Shown here piece by piece: positions 13,170-18,169 of a DNA stretch of 48,520 nucleotides; the stretch's first letter is position 1; each line of letters begins with the position of its first letter. The position numbers and the translations under genes were made by a program. This DNA comes from Halobacteriales archaeon QS_9_67_17. GTDB lineage: Archaea > Halobacteriota > Halobacteria > Halobacteriales > Haloarculaceae. The stretch is from positions 7,401 to 55,920 of the forward strand of contig PXSB01000088.1 in the NCBI GenBank assembly GCA_003023185.1, read 5' to 3'. The notes under the pieces were generated by a model. The model had not been told where the DNA came from. It worked only from the letters and a program-made list of their open reading frames with translations, and did no database searches.

Positions 13170-13703
13170 ATGGTCCAATGCGAGATGTGCGGCACCGCGG
13201 TCGCGGACCCGAAGACGGTGAAGGTCGAGGGGGCCGAACTCGACGTGTGCGGCGACTGCGCCGAGTTCGGGACCGAGGTGCGGCAGGACACCTCATCGTC
13301 GGCCTCAACGAAGTACTCTACTTCTTCGTCGGACACCTCCTCGTCGTCCGGGTCGTCAGCGTCGGCTTCCTCCGGATCGTCCGGCGGCGGCCGTCGCCGC
13401 GACATGTTCGACGAGATGGACGAGGTGGCGACGGATTACGACGACCGGATCCGAAACGCCCGCGAAGCCGAAGGCCTCTCACAGGAGGAGTTGGCCGACC
13501 AACTCAACGAGAAGGTCGGCGTGATCCGGAAGTTGGAGCGCGGCGACACACTTCCCACGGACGAGGTGCAGCGCGAACTGGAGAGCGCGCTCGGCGTCTC
13601 GCTCTCGGAGGGTGGCGGCGACGAGGAGTACGAGTTCGACAGCGACGATGGCTCCGCGACCGGGTCGTACACGCTCGGCGACGTGGTCAAGCGGAAAGAC
13701 TGA
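13170..13703 (+). CDS. archaeal multiprotein bridging factor 1 (aMBF1)
   Basis: The 177-residue protein has a zinc ribbon at the N-terminus (CEMCGTAV, then CGDCAEFG), a long Ser-rich linker at about 41-70, and a Cro/C1-type helix-turn-helix (IRNAREAEGLSQEELADQL ... VIRKLERGDTLP at about 95-135). That order is diagnostic of archaeal MBF1, which contacts basal transcription or ribosome components. A TATA-like ttttata lies about 28-30 bp upstream of the ATG. Its last codons and stop belong to a direct repeat that recurs at 14314-14354, next to tpiA. Confidence 0.92.
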   Translation: MVQCEMCGTAVADPKTVKVEGAELDVCGDCAEFGTEVRQDTSSSASTKYSTSSSDTSSSSGSSASASSGSSGGGRRRDMFDEMDEVATDYDDRIRNAREAEGLSQEELADQLNEKVGVIRKLERGDTLPTDEVQRELESALGVSLSEGGGDEEYEFDSDDGSATGSYTLGDVVKRKD

Positions 13704-13732
13704 ACGGACAGCTATTTGCTCGCGGCGGGTCG
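13692..13732 (+). repeat. direct repeat at the mbf1 3' end, left copy
   Basis: This 41-base block covers the last three mbf1 codons, its stop and the following spacer. It recurs at 14314-14354 with a single difference (a synonymous AAA/AAG change). The pair brackets about 580 bp holding two small membrane protein genes. Confidence 0.85.
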
Positions 13733-13747
13733 GTCCCTCAGTCTGAG

Positions 13748-13954
13748 CTACGCCCGTATGCGACGAATGTCGTTACTGAGTGCCCAGAGGAGGGGCAGGA
13801 CCGTGAGGGCATAGATCGCGAGGGCAACGACACCGTAGCCGGAGGATTGCAGCCACGGCTCGACCACCATCGCGGTTGCGAGCACGACAACAACGGCGAC
13901 TCGTCCGACGGTGCGCGTGAACCTCCGACCGTCGTCGCGATTTGTGTTCGTCAT
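13748..13954 (-). CDS. small membrane protein, two helices
   Basis: The 68-residue protein has a charged N-terminus (TNTNRDDGRRFTR), a first membrane helix at about 16-34 (VGRVAVVVVLATAMVV), a second at about 40-58 (YGVVALAIYALTVLPLLWAL) and a basic end (NDIRRIRA). Composition is that of a real haloarchaeal membrane protein. It lies inside the segment bounded by the mbf1-tail direct repeats and runs convergent to mbf1. No family recognised. Confidence 0.6.
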   Translation of the reverse strand: MTNTNRDDGRRFTRTVGRVAVVVVLATAMVVEPWLQSSGYGVVALAIYALTVLPLLWALSNDIRRIRA

Positions 13955-14011
13955 GTGTATCGAACGTTATCCACCGTGCATGTGAGAGTTCGGGCCGCCG
14001 ACCAGCCCGAC

Positions 14012-14122
14012 CTATGCAACGGCCCGAAGGATTTGGAACAGGACGTAGACCACCGCGGTCAACTCTGCGGCGACCACGGCCCATTCCTTTAGCCATTCGG
14101 GTGGTGGATTGGGTGAGGCCAT
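14012..14122 (-). CDS. 36-residue single-pass membrane peptide
   Basis: The protein MASPNPPPEW... has a Pro-rich start and one membrane helix (AVVAAELTAVVYVLFQILRAV). The frame extends upstream, but the ATG at 14122 fits best because its first 18 coding bases are repeated at 14271-14288. Very small and unrecognised, yet its composition and hydrophobicity are consistent with translation. It lies within the mbf1-tpiA insertion, on the same strand as the other small membrane gene. Confidence 0.5.
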   Translation of the reverse strand: MASPNPPPEWLKEWAVVAAELTAVVYVLFQILRAVA

Positions 14123-14270
14123 GTTTGGCCTCACGTATAAACACGAGCTACCGCCACATAAAGCTGTCGTCAAATTGTTACTATACCCACTAAGAATACC
14201 GAACCCTCCGAAACGTCGCAAAGGTCAAAAAGTCCCAAAAGCCTATATCGCTGAGCGACGTACATTAAGA

Positions 14271-14288
14271 TGGATTGGGTGAGGCCAT
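14271..14288 (-). repeat. second copy of the 36-aa gene's start
   Basis: The 18 bases tggattgggtgaggccat occur at 14105-14122, where they are the first six codons of the small membrane gene (minus strand), and again here. In this copy the frame reads only MASPNPS and stops at 14265, so it is a truncated duplicate of the gene's beginning. Confidence 0.7.
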
Positions 14289-14313
14289 TTCTCACCTTTC
14301 ACTACTTGACGAA

Positions 14314-14354
14314 CGGAAGGACTGAACGGACAGCTATTTGCTCGCGGCGGGTCG
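14314..14354 (+). repeat. direct repeat at the mbf1 3' end, right copy
   Basis: This second copy of the 41-base mbf1 tail and spacer ends 9 bases before the tpiA start. The left copy is attached to mbf1 and this one to tpiA, so the original order was probably mbf1 followed closely by tpiA, with the small-membrane-protein segment inserted between them. Confidence 0.85.
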
Positions 14355-14363
14355 TCGGTCCGT

Positions 14364-15008
14364 ATGTTCGTCCTCGTCAATTTGAAGGCGTACGACTGTG
14401 ATGCGACCGCCATCGCCCGCGCCGCGGCGGACGTGGCCGACGACTCGGGCGTGCGCGTCGCGGTCGCCCCGCAGACGGCCGACCTCCCACCCGTCGCGGA
14501 GACGGGCGTCGAGACGTTCGCGCAACACGTCTCTCCGGTCGACCACGGCAGTCACACTGGCTCGACACTTGCCGAGGCCGTCGCCAACTACGCCGACGGC
14601 ACGCTGCTCAACCACTCGGAGCGACGGCTCACGCTCGCGGACATCGACGCCGCGCTCGGAGCCGCCGACCGCGCCGGCCTGGAAACGGTCGTCTGCGCGA
14701 ACGATCCCGAACAGATCGCCGCCGTCACCGCGCTCGGTCCCGACGCCGTCGCCGTCGAGCCGCCGGCGCTCATCGGCACCGGCACGCCGGTGTCCTCGGC
14801 CGACCCGGCGGTCGTCGAGGGTGCGGTCGCGGCCGCCGAATTCGACCCGTCCGTCGACGTGTACTGTGGTGCCGGTATCTCCACGGGTGAGGACGTGCTC
14901 GCGGCCCGCGAGTTGGGCGCGTCCGGAGTGCTGCTCGCGTCGGGCGTCGCCAAGGCAGACGACCCCCGCGCCGCGCTCGAAGATCTCGTCTCCGGGCTTA
15001 GCTCTTGA
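14364..15008 (+). CDS. tpiA: triose-phosphate isomerase, archaeal type
   Basis: The 214-residue protein has the short archaeal TIM form: NLKAYD with the substrate Lys at residue 8, [21 protein letters not shown], the catalytic Glu in [10 protein letters not shown] at about 134-143, and the phosphate loop CGAGIS near 172. It interconverts dihydroxyacetone phosphate and glyceraldehyde 3-phosphate in central metabolism. The end overlaps the convergent HerA-type gene by 11 bases. Confidence 0.95.
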
Positions 15009-18000
15009 GTTCGTGCGCGTCGGAGCCGTCCACCGGATCGAGCGAGCGCGCCGACGGGAGCAGTTCGATGACGCGTGAGAGCGCGGCTTCGAGGTTTGCC
15101 TTCGCCAGCCGGTCGTCGTGTGCCTCCCGTATCGACGCGCGGAGCCGCGACTGGTACTCGCCGCGGCCGGCGTGCTCGATGAGTCCGTGCTCGCGGAGTT
15201 GGCCGTTCCGGCGGTACGCCTCCGTCCGCTCGCCGTCGCCGCCGGCGGCGACGTGAGCATCGAGCGGCGACACCGGGCCGTGCTCGCGGTAGTGCGCGAG
15301 CATGCCACGCGTCACGTCGTCGAGCGACGCAATCGCCCCGCGCAACTCGGCGACGACCGGTCGGTTCGCGTCGCCGGTGGTTTCGGGGGCGTCGAAGGCC
15401 GGCTCAACGTCGCCGTGCGCGTCCCGAACGTCGTCTCCGACCGCCGTCGCTCCTGCGTCCTGCTTGAACGCCGTCGCGCTGTCGCCTTCTGTCTCGTCCG
15501 TCGTGGTGTCGCCGTCTTCCCTCTCCACCGTCGACTCGCTCGTCTGCGCCGCCATCCGACTGGCACCGAAATCGTCGGCACGCAGCGGATCGTCGTCTGC
15601 GTCGTCCACCCTGTCGAAGTCGTCCGTAGCTGTGTCTCCCGTCTCGCGCTCCCACTCGTCTCGGTTCTCCTCGGTCTGCGTGACGATGGTCCCACCGGAG
15701 GGTCTGTCCTCGTGTTCGGTGAGTTCCGACTGGCGACCGGTGATGTCGTCGCGGAACGCCCGCCCGGTCGCGTGGGCCATCATCGCCCGCGAGAACTGCT
15801 CGGCCATCTCCGAGAGGTCCCGCGCTTCCTCTAATTCCGCTTCGAGTTCCTTGATGCGCTCCTCCCTGTCCTTCAGTTCGCGTTCCAACTCCTGCACCCG
15901 AGACTTGCGCTGTTGCTCCTGTTCGGTGATGGATTCGAGTTCGCCCACGAGGTCCGCGGAGACGGACTTGAGTTCGGGCCGCTCGAAGTCGTCCAGTCCG
16001 GGCGTCGCGCCGGCGTCGAAGGTCCGCTTTCGCTCCATCTGCACGCGCCGGAGCGACTCGCCGAAGTCGCTCATCATGAAACACTCGCCGTCGGCCAGCT
16101 CCTCCACCTCTGTGCGGTAGTCGCTGCCGAGGATGCGCCCGGCCACCTTCGTGTCGTTCGACCACGTGAGCCGGTGCCACAGCAGCCAGTCACACTGCGT
16201 GATGAAGTCCTTCTTCACGTCGGCGGGCCGCTGTGAGATGCCGACGACGCCGAGTCCGTGTTTCCGCCCGCGCTTGCCGACCTTCACCAGCATCCGGCCA
16301 CACTCGTCCATCCCACCGCCCTCCGGGATGTACTCGTGTATCTCCTCGACGAGCATCAGGAACGGCTGTTTCTGCTTTTTTTCCTTCGCGAACAGGTGTT
16401 TGGCCACCTCCTTCAGCAGTTCGCGGGCGTCGCTCTCGTCGAGAAACGAGGACACGTCGAGGATGATCGGCACGCCCTGTTCGAGCGCGAGCGACGCCAG
16501 CTTCTCGGCGTGCTCGACGGACACCTGGAGGTCACACTCCTCGTCGGCCCCGACGTGGAGTATCTCGTACTCCTCCTTCAGCCCGTAGTACTCGCCGTCG
16601 ATGTCGACGCACAACAGGGAGTAGCCTCGGTCGAGCAGTTTCTCGGCGATCACCGACGCGGAGTTGGAGTTGTGGACGAACACCCCGTTCGCGATGAAGT
16701 TGTCGTGGCGTTTTACATCGAGATCATAAACCGTTCTGGACGCGTCAAGCGGTTCGACCGACACGACTCGCTTCCACTGAACGTCCGACTCCGCGAACTG
16801 CCTGATTCGCCCCCCAGTACCGAGATCGTCGAGCACGGACTGAAGCTGCCGACGCCCTACCTTCTGCTTCCGTGTAAACTGATGTATGGAGGCAGCGTCG
16901 GTTCGTTCGTCGCTGTCTCGTGTCGTCCAGCCGCGCTCGCGTGCCGCAGTGTTGAGCACGTCACCGAACTCGGGTATCATGTCTTTGCTATCGTACTGAT
17001 CTCCAGTCGTTAACTCTTCAACGAGGGCCCCGAGGCGCTCTCGTTTCGAGTCGATCAGTAGCTCTACGCTGTCGGCGAACGCCGGAATCGAGAACGCGTC
17101 CACAGCTAGCCGACGAAACTGACGTCGTTCATCTCCGTACAGCGTCAATCGATTTTTTCTGGTGGTCGACACCTCGAACTGTCGGAGGAGTTCTGCGATT
17201 CCCCGTATCAGCTCCGGTGATTTCGAGACCACGGTGACTCTGTTCTTTTCGACGCTCCCGTCGCCGTCGAAGTATCCCCCGAGGAGCCCGGCACGGAACG
17301 GCTCGGGCGCGTCGTACACCCATTCCGGGATTACCTTGCCGCCCGCTCCAGTTCCGAACTCCGATGCGACGAACTCGGTGAAGGGCTTGAACCCGCGATT
17401 ACAGGTCCGCTCGTAGACGTTGAACCCGTTGTCGTCGAGAAACGAACGGATCGACGGGTTCGTCGCCGAGATCTGCATCGTCATCCCCGAGTCGAACGAG
17501 CCCTCCGCGAGATACAATCCCAGTACTCGTCCGGTCGCGGCGTCGAGGTCGAGATATCGCTCGCCCGTCACGCCGGCGCTTCGTATGGAGTCCGCGTTGA
17601 CCACGGTGTTGTTCGCCGGTTCGAAGTGGTCGACGAGGTCGAATCGTGTCCGCGTTTCCGGCCCGGGGAGCCGTCGAGCGAGCGGCAACCAGGTTCCCCC
17701 GGAGACATCGCTTCCGCGGATCGGAACAATTTCCATCTCATCGACGGTCAGGAAACTGTGATCTTCTGTCCCTATCAGTTCCGTCCCGTCTTCCAGCTCG
17801 ATCCGGAGCAAGTCATCGGCTTCGTGTTGGATGGTCGCCTGAACGGGCTGAAACTCCTGTTCGTACGTTTCCTTGTTCAGCGACAGAACCTGTTCCCCTT
17901 CGTCGACACGCTCTATGGGTTTCCGACCGTCCTCAGTATACACCGGCGTCCCTTCGAGGATACTCTTGCCACCGCCACTCTTCCCGGTGATGAAGCCGCG

Positions 18001-18093
18001 ACCGGTGAGGATGTCGACGATGGGTACCTCGACCGGCGCGCCGACAGCCTCTCCGGCACTCACCTCCCCGATAGTGATGTGCTCCTCGCTCAT
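14998..18093 (-). CDS. HerA-type ATPase interrupted by an intein
   Basis: The precursor has 1031 residues; without the intein it has 599. The host part begins [10 protein letters not shown] with a HerA-like beta barrel region, then a P-loop [10 protein letters not shown] that is interrupted after Lys43 and resumes with SNSASV. It continues with Walker B-like [14 protein letters not shown], a SQRPADV sensor region, a long coiled coil ([13 protein letters not shown] onward) and a C-terminal winged-helix-like domain ending [14 protein letters not shown]. HerA/FtsK relatives pump DNA, often with the NurA nuclease in end resection; NurA is not adjacent here. The ATG at 18093 is supported by a TATA-like element about 26-34 bp upstream. 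It converges on tpiA. Confidence 0.88.
16669..17964 (-). mobile_element. 432-aa intein with LAGLIDADG endonuclease in the HerA P-loop
   Basis: The intein starts with Ser1 ([10 protein letters not shown], block A), has TEDH (block B) at about 66-69, two LAGLIDADG motifs, VLGLYLAEG at 147-155 and [10 protein letters not shown] at 227-236, each with its acidic residue, block [14 protein letters not shown], and ends ANGVFVHN with the penultimate His and terminal Asn (431-432). The +1 residue is the host Ser of the P-loop (GK followed by S). All splicing residues are present with Ser as nucleophile at both ends, and the homing domain looks intact. The insertion interrupts the nucleotide-binding loop between Lys and Ser, a favoured intein site, so the ATPase is inactive until splicing. 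Confidence 0.93.
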
Positions 18094-18118
18094 TACGCGG
18101 AGGGTGCGCTCCCCGGCC

Positions 18119-18126
18119 GATAAATC
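18119..18126 (-). promoter_or_regulatory. TATA-like element of the HerA-type gene
   Basis: On the minus strand the block gatttatc lies 26-33 bp before the ATG at 18093, the spacing of a leaderless haloarchaeal promoter. Assigned by spacing and composition only. Confidence 0.45.
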
Positions 18127-18169
18127 CGCGTCAGACGCGCGGCATACCGGCATCCACGATGGCGATGCC

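Follow-up and report, generated by a model that had tools for sequence, protein, structure and literature searches.

A mobile haloarchaeal cassette of two small membrane-protein genes as a candidate type I toxin-antitoxin module

In the par (fst) locus of plasmid pAD1, which serves plasmid maintenance, the toxin mRNA and the antitoxin RNA have direct repeats in common at the translation start, and the two RNAs are transcribed convergently with a shared terminator. A different arrangement is given in the available portion of PMC3919570 for OrzO, a divergently transcribed small RNA with 18 nt of complementarity that pairs by its 5′ end. As far as the accessible parts of two sources go (PMC12390103, PMC8309996), type I systems are restricted to bacteria, and according to the former they were known from no more than three phyla of bacteria before a candidate from cyanobacteria was put forward in 2025 (PMC12390103). 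With respect to archaea, antisense RNAs to type II systems have been described (PMC6523106, in the portion at hand), a survey of marine genomes that counts orphan toxins of type I does not name archaeal ones in the accessible text of PMC12654330, and TADB 3.0 includes type I predictions on 532 archaeal genomes, the archaeal count not being given in the part of its description that is available. Within our literature searches on the topic, no archaeal type I system was found in print. The RNA-based module CreTA of Haloarcula hispanica has, according to the available excerpt of its description, an RNA as toxin and an antitoxin that works together with Cascade. Finally, for the insertion sequences IS1549 and IS1634, target duplications of 8-514 bp are reported without a mechanistic model in the accessible part of PMC2266710.

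A recent insertion with target duplication between mbf1 and tpiA

The window analysed here is a stretch of 48,520 nt from Halobacteriales archaeon QS_9_67_17, in which an earlier note had pointed to an insertion between mbf1 and tpiA flanked by long direct repeats (Table 1). The two repeat copies are identical at 40 of 41 positions with a spacing of 622 bp, and their local-alignment score of 38.5 compares with a maximum of 17.5 over 200 shuffles. In line with the note, the repeat lies over the mbf1 stop and contains a single synonymous difference (A at 13697, G at 14319, changing AAA to AAG, both Lys); the A is found in the left copy as well as in the congener G005, and the G in the right copy. 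The insert, for which a size of 580 bp had been given, measures 581 bp and indeed contains two ORFs for small membrane proteins, with helices predicted from hydropathy. After the insertion mbf1 is still complete and tpiA still has a promoter region. As also stated in the note, the ORF list holds no integrase- or transposase-sized frame within the 581 bp, and terminal inverted repeats were not found at the insert ends (p = 0.78 in the window, p = 0.048 for L093, the Haloarcula pellucida cassette). Elsewhere in the window, a 1051-aa ORF (14998-18153, minus strand) has by eye the look of a HerA-type ATPase with an intein-like insertion after the motif GKSGGGKS.

Table 1. Positions of genes, repeats and predicted elements at the mbf1-tpiA locus of the window
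Feature	Coordinates	Strand	Remarks
mbf1	13170-13703		helix-turn-helix protein by Pfam; gene name taken from the earlier note
Left 41-bp copy	13692..13732		last mbf1 codons and a copy of the tpiA promoter joint; single in G005
Inserted cassette, 581 bp	13733..14313		G + C content 0.563 (whole window 0.651); missing from G005
68-aa protein, two predicted membrane helices	13748..13954	-	ORF, hydropathy; homologues always adjoin the 36-aa gene
36-aa peptide, one predicted membrane helix; proposed toxin	14012..14122	-	ORF, hydropathy, alignment
U2, codons 1-6 of the 36-aa gene	14105..14122	-	proposed antisense target
Start-codon hairpin GTGAGGCC-AAACAT-GGCCTCAC	14113..14134	-	predicted mRNA 5′ end
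TATA-like box of the mRNA	14158..14163	-	centre 26.5 nt before first hairpin base
TATA-like box of the antisense RNA, CCTATA	14242..14247	+	centre 26.5 nt before 14271
U1, complement of the 36-aa start	14271..14288	+	predicted first 18 nt of antisense RNA
Hairpin GGTGAG/CTCACC followed by TTT	14278..14299	+	overlaps U1; proposed antisense terminator; weak here (z -0.84)
Right 41-bp copy (AAG variant)	14314..14354		tpiA-side promoter region; similar sequence 5′ of tpiA in relatives
tpiA	14364-15008		supported by Pfam

The history of the site was read from the mbf1-tpiA spacers that the note had proposed to compare. Among the five congeners returned by the relatives search (G001-G005), an empty site with a single repeat copy is present in G005, where 38 bp separate the mbf1 stop from the tpiA ATG and which is closely similar to the window (TpiA 96% identical, flanks 94-95% identical). 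In G001-G004 the spacers are 767-1692 bp long and contain each half of the repeat once, the sequence between mbf1 and tpiA being otherwise different. The joint, present with one copy in G005 and absent from G001-G004, therefore formed in the lineage to which G005 and the window belong, and the cassette was added to it later. In a profile search of the 146 family genomes, strong matches to the 36-aa peptide were obtained only in three, i.e., the window genome, G309 and G331, one further match was weak, and apart from the window genome none has the insert at the mbf1-tpiA site. The recent insertion with duplication of its target that had been claimed thus stands: as judged from the 40/41 repeats and the empty single-copy site, these comparisons show that the cassette entered recently and that 41 bp of the target were duplicated. 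Across 17 relatives (L033-L051 without L042 and L044) the mbf1-tpiA spacer ranges from 35 to 4307 bp, and the place seems to gain and lose genes often.

Distribution of the cassette and other insertion sites

Single-sequence and profile searches for the unit and its peptides, as the note had suggested, were run on 392 genomes drawn from the order and gave clear matches in nine, including the window genome, all of which have the 36-aa gene and the 68-aa gene as a pair; a tenth match, in G325, is weak and lies in a 126-aa frame. Within the Natrialba family, 4 of 125 genomes have strong matches to the 36-aa peptide and three more have weak ones. Among the carriers are Natrialba aegyptia, N. taiwanensis, N. 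asiatica, Halobacterium sp. TGN-42-S1 and Haloarcula pellucida. The only other copy found in the window genome, which is 67.5% complete, is a decayed 68-aa gene on contig C47 (L052 5210-5410, minus strand; G000:C47:13209-13409) that was left out of the 68-aa alignment A2; it has an internal stop, lies near a transposase-like ORF and lacks the 18-bp repeat of the window. Plasmid and phage collections yielded no relative, and none was found among viral contigs.

In two further genomes the boundaries of the cassette can be compared with those in the window. In H. pellucida (L093) an insert of 600 bp is flanked by 131-bp repeats, which occur as a single copy in another Haloarcula, G362; that single copy speaks against an old native duplication, which had been considered for this repeat. 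The case for a target duplication is nevertheless weaker at L093 than in the window, the repeat sequence being aged and structured. In G364 (L098) a cassette of ~599 bp sits at a conserved chromosomal place: among 28 other genomes of the genus, the match to the left flank reaches q1385-1406 in 24 and q1531 in G232, stops earlier in G410 and G409 and is lacking in G417, and several genomes resume at q1982-2005; in G230 the two flanks are found 99 bp apart. A long flanking repeat was not found in seven of the nine loci, including L098, with L095 and L097 lying near contig ends. The distance from the 68-aa stop to the insert end is 15 bp in the window (581-bp insert), 37 bp in the 600-bp insert and ~19 bp in the ~599-bp insert, and these similar sizes together with the short 3′ ends point to a discrete unit. 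The insertion targets differ among the window, L093 and L098, with no fixed attachment site in common.

How the cassette enters such sites may be explained in several ways. That plasmid DNA was captured by chance during the repair of a staggered break, 41-nt overhangs being filled in without any mobility specific to the element, has in our view somewhat less than an even chance; the insert has neither a recombinase nor inverted repeats and seven of nine copies lack flanking repeats, but in three insertions that arose independently the inserted DNA corresponds almost exactly to the cassette (581, 600 and ~599 bp). Many integrase sites overlap the 3′ end of a gene and leave that gene intact. A 622-bp circle carrying a 41-bp site could likewise have been integrated at the mbf1 3′ end by an integrase acting in trans, and the repeat does overlap the end of mbf1, keeps it intact and has its single mismatch near one edge; however, the 41 bp span a joint that is limited to this lineage and differs in G001-G004, and the 131-bp repeat of H. 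pellucida is unrelated, which makes this route quite unlikely. The cassette may have been inserted by a recombinase that acts in trans and produces long duplications of variable length, or it may have been captured in the repair of a break. Irrespective of the route, the comparison of genomes shows that the two genes for small membrane proteins form a unit that has spread horizontally.

The genes next to the cassette fit a role in plasmid maintenance: parA lies beside it in H. pellucida and N. aegyptia, and its neighbourhood contains a serine resolvase gene in the latter and an adenine methyltransferase gene in the former. The accessory regions around L094 (G331:C5) and L100 (G101:C5) have many similar 40-80-bp units spread along them. 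A tandem 76-bp copy in G262:C49 coincides with an N in the assembly and was disregarded, as it probably arose during assembly.

The peptides of 36-37 aa have a best 19-residue hydropathy of 1.19-1.95 in eight loci, and their alignment contains eight invariant columns, including PP, W and EWA. Differences in the 36-aa gene are distributed over the three codon positions as 99/81/157, and there are 97 synonymous and 121 nonsynonymous changes in 360 codon comparisons (15 pairs from six loci, L100 and L097 left out). Because third positions vary most, selection at the protein level is visible in these alignments, albeit not extreme. The 36-aa protein has no family in Pfam or NCBIfam and the 68-aa protein none in Pfam or PHROGs; up to E = 0.1, the 68-aa alignment had weak matches only, and no family, in Pfam and PADLOC, and an Rfam search gave a single sub-threshold chance match. 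The 68-aa protein might act as a second toxin, confer immunity or be a partner in assembly. Between the two genes, a conserved double hairpin, often with GNRA-like loops, was seen by eye in L093-L098 and L100; the window has kept just one of these two inter-ORF hairpins.

The 18-bp repeat and a predicted antisense RNA

The internal 18-bp duplication described in the note is exact in the window (U1 and U2 in Table 1), and two such matches arise in 0 of 100 window shuffles. Its interpretation as the start of a second, truncated copy of the 36-aa gene was not upheld, however: the alleged copy amounts to ATG, six codons and a stop, and U1 is more probably an antisense segment, fixed in eight of nine loci and coevolving with the start of the 36-aa gene. 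The exception is L099 (G313), where the gene pair is present but no U1 was found, and which is left out of the following counts. The distance between U1 and U2 is 124-127 bp in seven loci and 166 bp in the window. Within the eight loci, U1 and U2 agree at 18, 17, 18, 18, 18, 18, 17 and 15 of 18 positions, as opposed to 8-17 of 18 (mean 11.5) between loci (42 ordered pairs, seven loci without L097). In the permutation and promoter tests, L097 was left out as a near duplicate of L096. Of 5040 permutations of the seven loci, the true pairing is the best with 121 of 126 positions, followed by one with 119, a thin margin that is due to the similarity of L095 and L098. Accordingly, predicted duplexes within a locus have -28.8 to -36.2 kcal/mol and those with other loci -12.4 to -27.7 kcal/mol, the near-identical L096 and L097 aside. 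At the level of sequence, these comparisons show an 18-bp copy of the first six codons upstream of the gene that is matched within loci while the loci themselves differ. On its opposite strand, U1 is complementary to the 36-aa mRNA where translation starts, at 15-18 of 18 positions in eight loci and specifically for the own locus. The duplication is most plausibly the antisense part of a putative RNA transcribed in the divergent direction. A tRNA-like or C/D-box element in U1, a guide-RNA insertion mechanism and IS200/IS605-like ends were considered and dropped.

Archaeal TATA boxes lie ~26 nt upstream of the transcription start. In a scan with a home-made matrix summed over seven loci, with shuffles that treat the related loci as independent, a TATA-like peak on the mRNA strand is centred 26.5 nt ahead of the base at which the start-codon hairpin begins (equalled in 0 of 2000 shuffles), and within 60 nt of the start of the U1 complement an antisense peak also occurs at 26.5 nt (2 of 5000 shuffles; L100 shifted by 3 nt, its repeat extending 3 nt further). 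When the antisense scan is widened to 75 nt, the score at 26.5 nt is exceeded by one at 71.5 nt, presumably the mRNA box read backwards. Individually the antisense boxes are weak (p 0.19-0.69), their significance coming only from the constant position. The start-codon hairpin has the stem TGGGTC/GACCCA in seven loci as opposed to GTGAGGCC/GGCCTCAC in the window, where three of the six pairs from the loop have changed on both sides (alignment A3, by eye, in one lineage). On the antisense strand, a hairpin at or after U1 has z-values of -2.6 to -4.5 in six of seven loci; that of the window is the exception. A U-run follows it in L093-L097 and, in short form, in the window, and is not clear in L098 and L100.

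Direct repeats near promoters are commonly operators. U1 and U2 could therefore be two operators of a locus-specific DNA-binding protein, the peptides then being an ordinary regulated plasmid trait and no toxin, and the site at the start codon is in fact a perfect inverted repeat. This is unlikely, however: the cassette has no regulator gene, U1 contains just half of the inverted repeat, the identity coincides with codons 1-6, and the opposite strand has both a TATA-like box 26.5 nt from the base at which this identity ends and a hairpin after U1. In addition, relatives devoid of the toxin retain U1 together with hairpin and box. At four such sites (site B of L163, L160 at C21 and the second site of L159, C49-2, all from Natrialba, and L182 in G232), U1 and the hairpin are kept, a TATA-like box lies at the usual distance or close to it, and the downstream 36-aa start is missing; the three Natrialba sites are paralogues and thus not independent. 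A fifth site, C49-1, has kept U1 with an interruption near an assembly gap. A reading of those Natrialba sites that lack the gene pair as unoccupied targets, in which the cassette had been inserted next to U1, was rejected, as hairpin and U1 are retained there; they are more probably toxin-less derivatives, and such solitary antitoxins fit a toxin-antitoxin reading.

The exact direct repeats with their near-constant spacing (124-127 bp in seven loci, 166 bp in the window) might alternatively be a recombination pair, with expression switched on or off as the promoter in the spacer is inserted or excised, or else a small target duplication. Either would call for a separate event in every locus, each time at the same codon, and U1 is fused to the 36-aa gene in none of the toxin-less relatives; we regard this as very unlikely. 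Hardly credible, finally, is a CreTA-like module with U1 as a degenerate CRISPR spacer guiding Cascade to the toxin promoter: an RNA-based module is known from Haloarcula hispanica, as far as the available part of its description goes, but flanks resembling CRISPR repeats are absent from U1 (best 13-16 of 30 against a shuffle 95% value of 17 in seven loci).

The insert is thus, with fair probability, a mobile self-contained cassette that would work like a bacterial type I toxin-antitoxin module in the layout of zorO-orzO, as its sequence suggests. The mRNA would start ~8-12 nt before the ATG, inside a 5′ hairpin hiding the start codon. A second promoter in the spacer, pointing in the opposite direction, would give rise to a short antisense RNA reaching from the complement of codon 6 through the start codon to a hairpin at which it ends, and this RNA might pair in trans with codons 1-6 of the mRNA and block translation. 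Upon loss of the RNA along with the plasmid or locus, the 36-aa peptide, perhaps together with the 68-aa protein, would harm the cell, rendering the cassette addictive.

Comparison with known systems

More tentatively, and with a probability clearly short of even, the cassettes might constitute the first archaeal type I family, a selfish unit of ~0.6 kb that settles in intergenic regions, occasionally with target duplications of 41-131 bp produced by recombination, and leaves antidote-only remnants. A type I module would, if true, be new for archaea, and a haloarchaeal family with cassettes, empty sites and antidote-only loci would make archaeal antisense control of the translation start directly testable. 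In turn, insertions for which empty-site relatives exist offer a way to study how a short cassette devoid of a recombinase spreads, and to study long target duplications, which so far lack a model.

With respect to the insertion, IS1549 and IS1634, in the accessible part of their description, likewise produce long and variable duplications, but they have a transposase; because the cassette has no transposase and no inverted repeats, this likeness is an analogy only. CreTA, according to the available excerpt, is also a haloarchaeal addiction module controlled by RNA, in contrast to which the cassette is without CRISPR-like repeats. The par (fst) locus of pAD1 shares with the cassette the repeats at the translation start; it is convergent, whereas the cassette is divergent. 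When compared to the type I loci of E. coli, the cassette is archaeal, has predicted promoters of archaeal type, and is expected to pair across the start codon and codons 1-6; its second membrane gene, coding for the 68-aa protein, has no counterpart in zorO-orzO, and the toxicity of the cassette is a prediction. In their overall layout, however, zorO-orzO, shoB-ohsC and tisB-istR of E. coli are alike to it, as they combine, in the available portion of PMC3919570, a small hydrophobic peptide with a divergently transcribed small RNA that pairs over 18-19 nt by its 5′ end.
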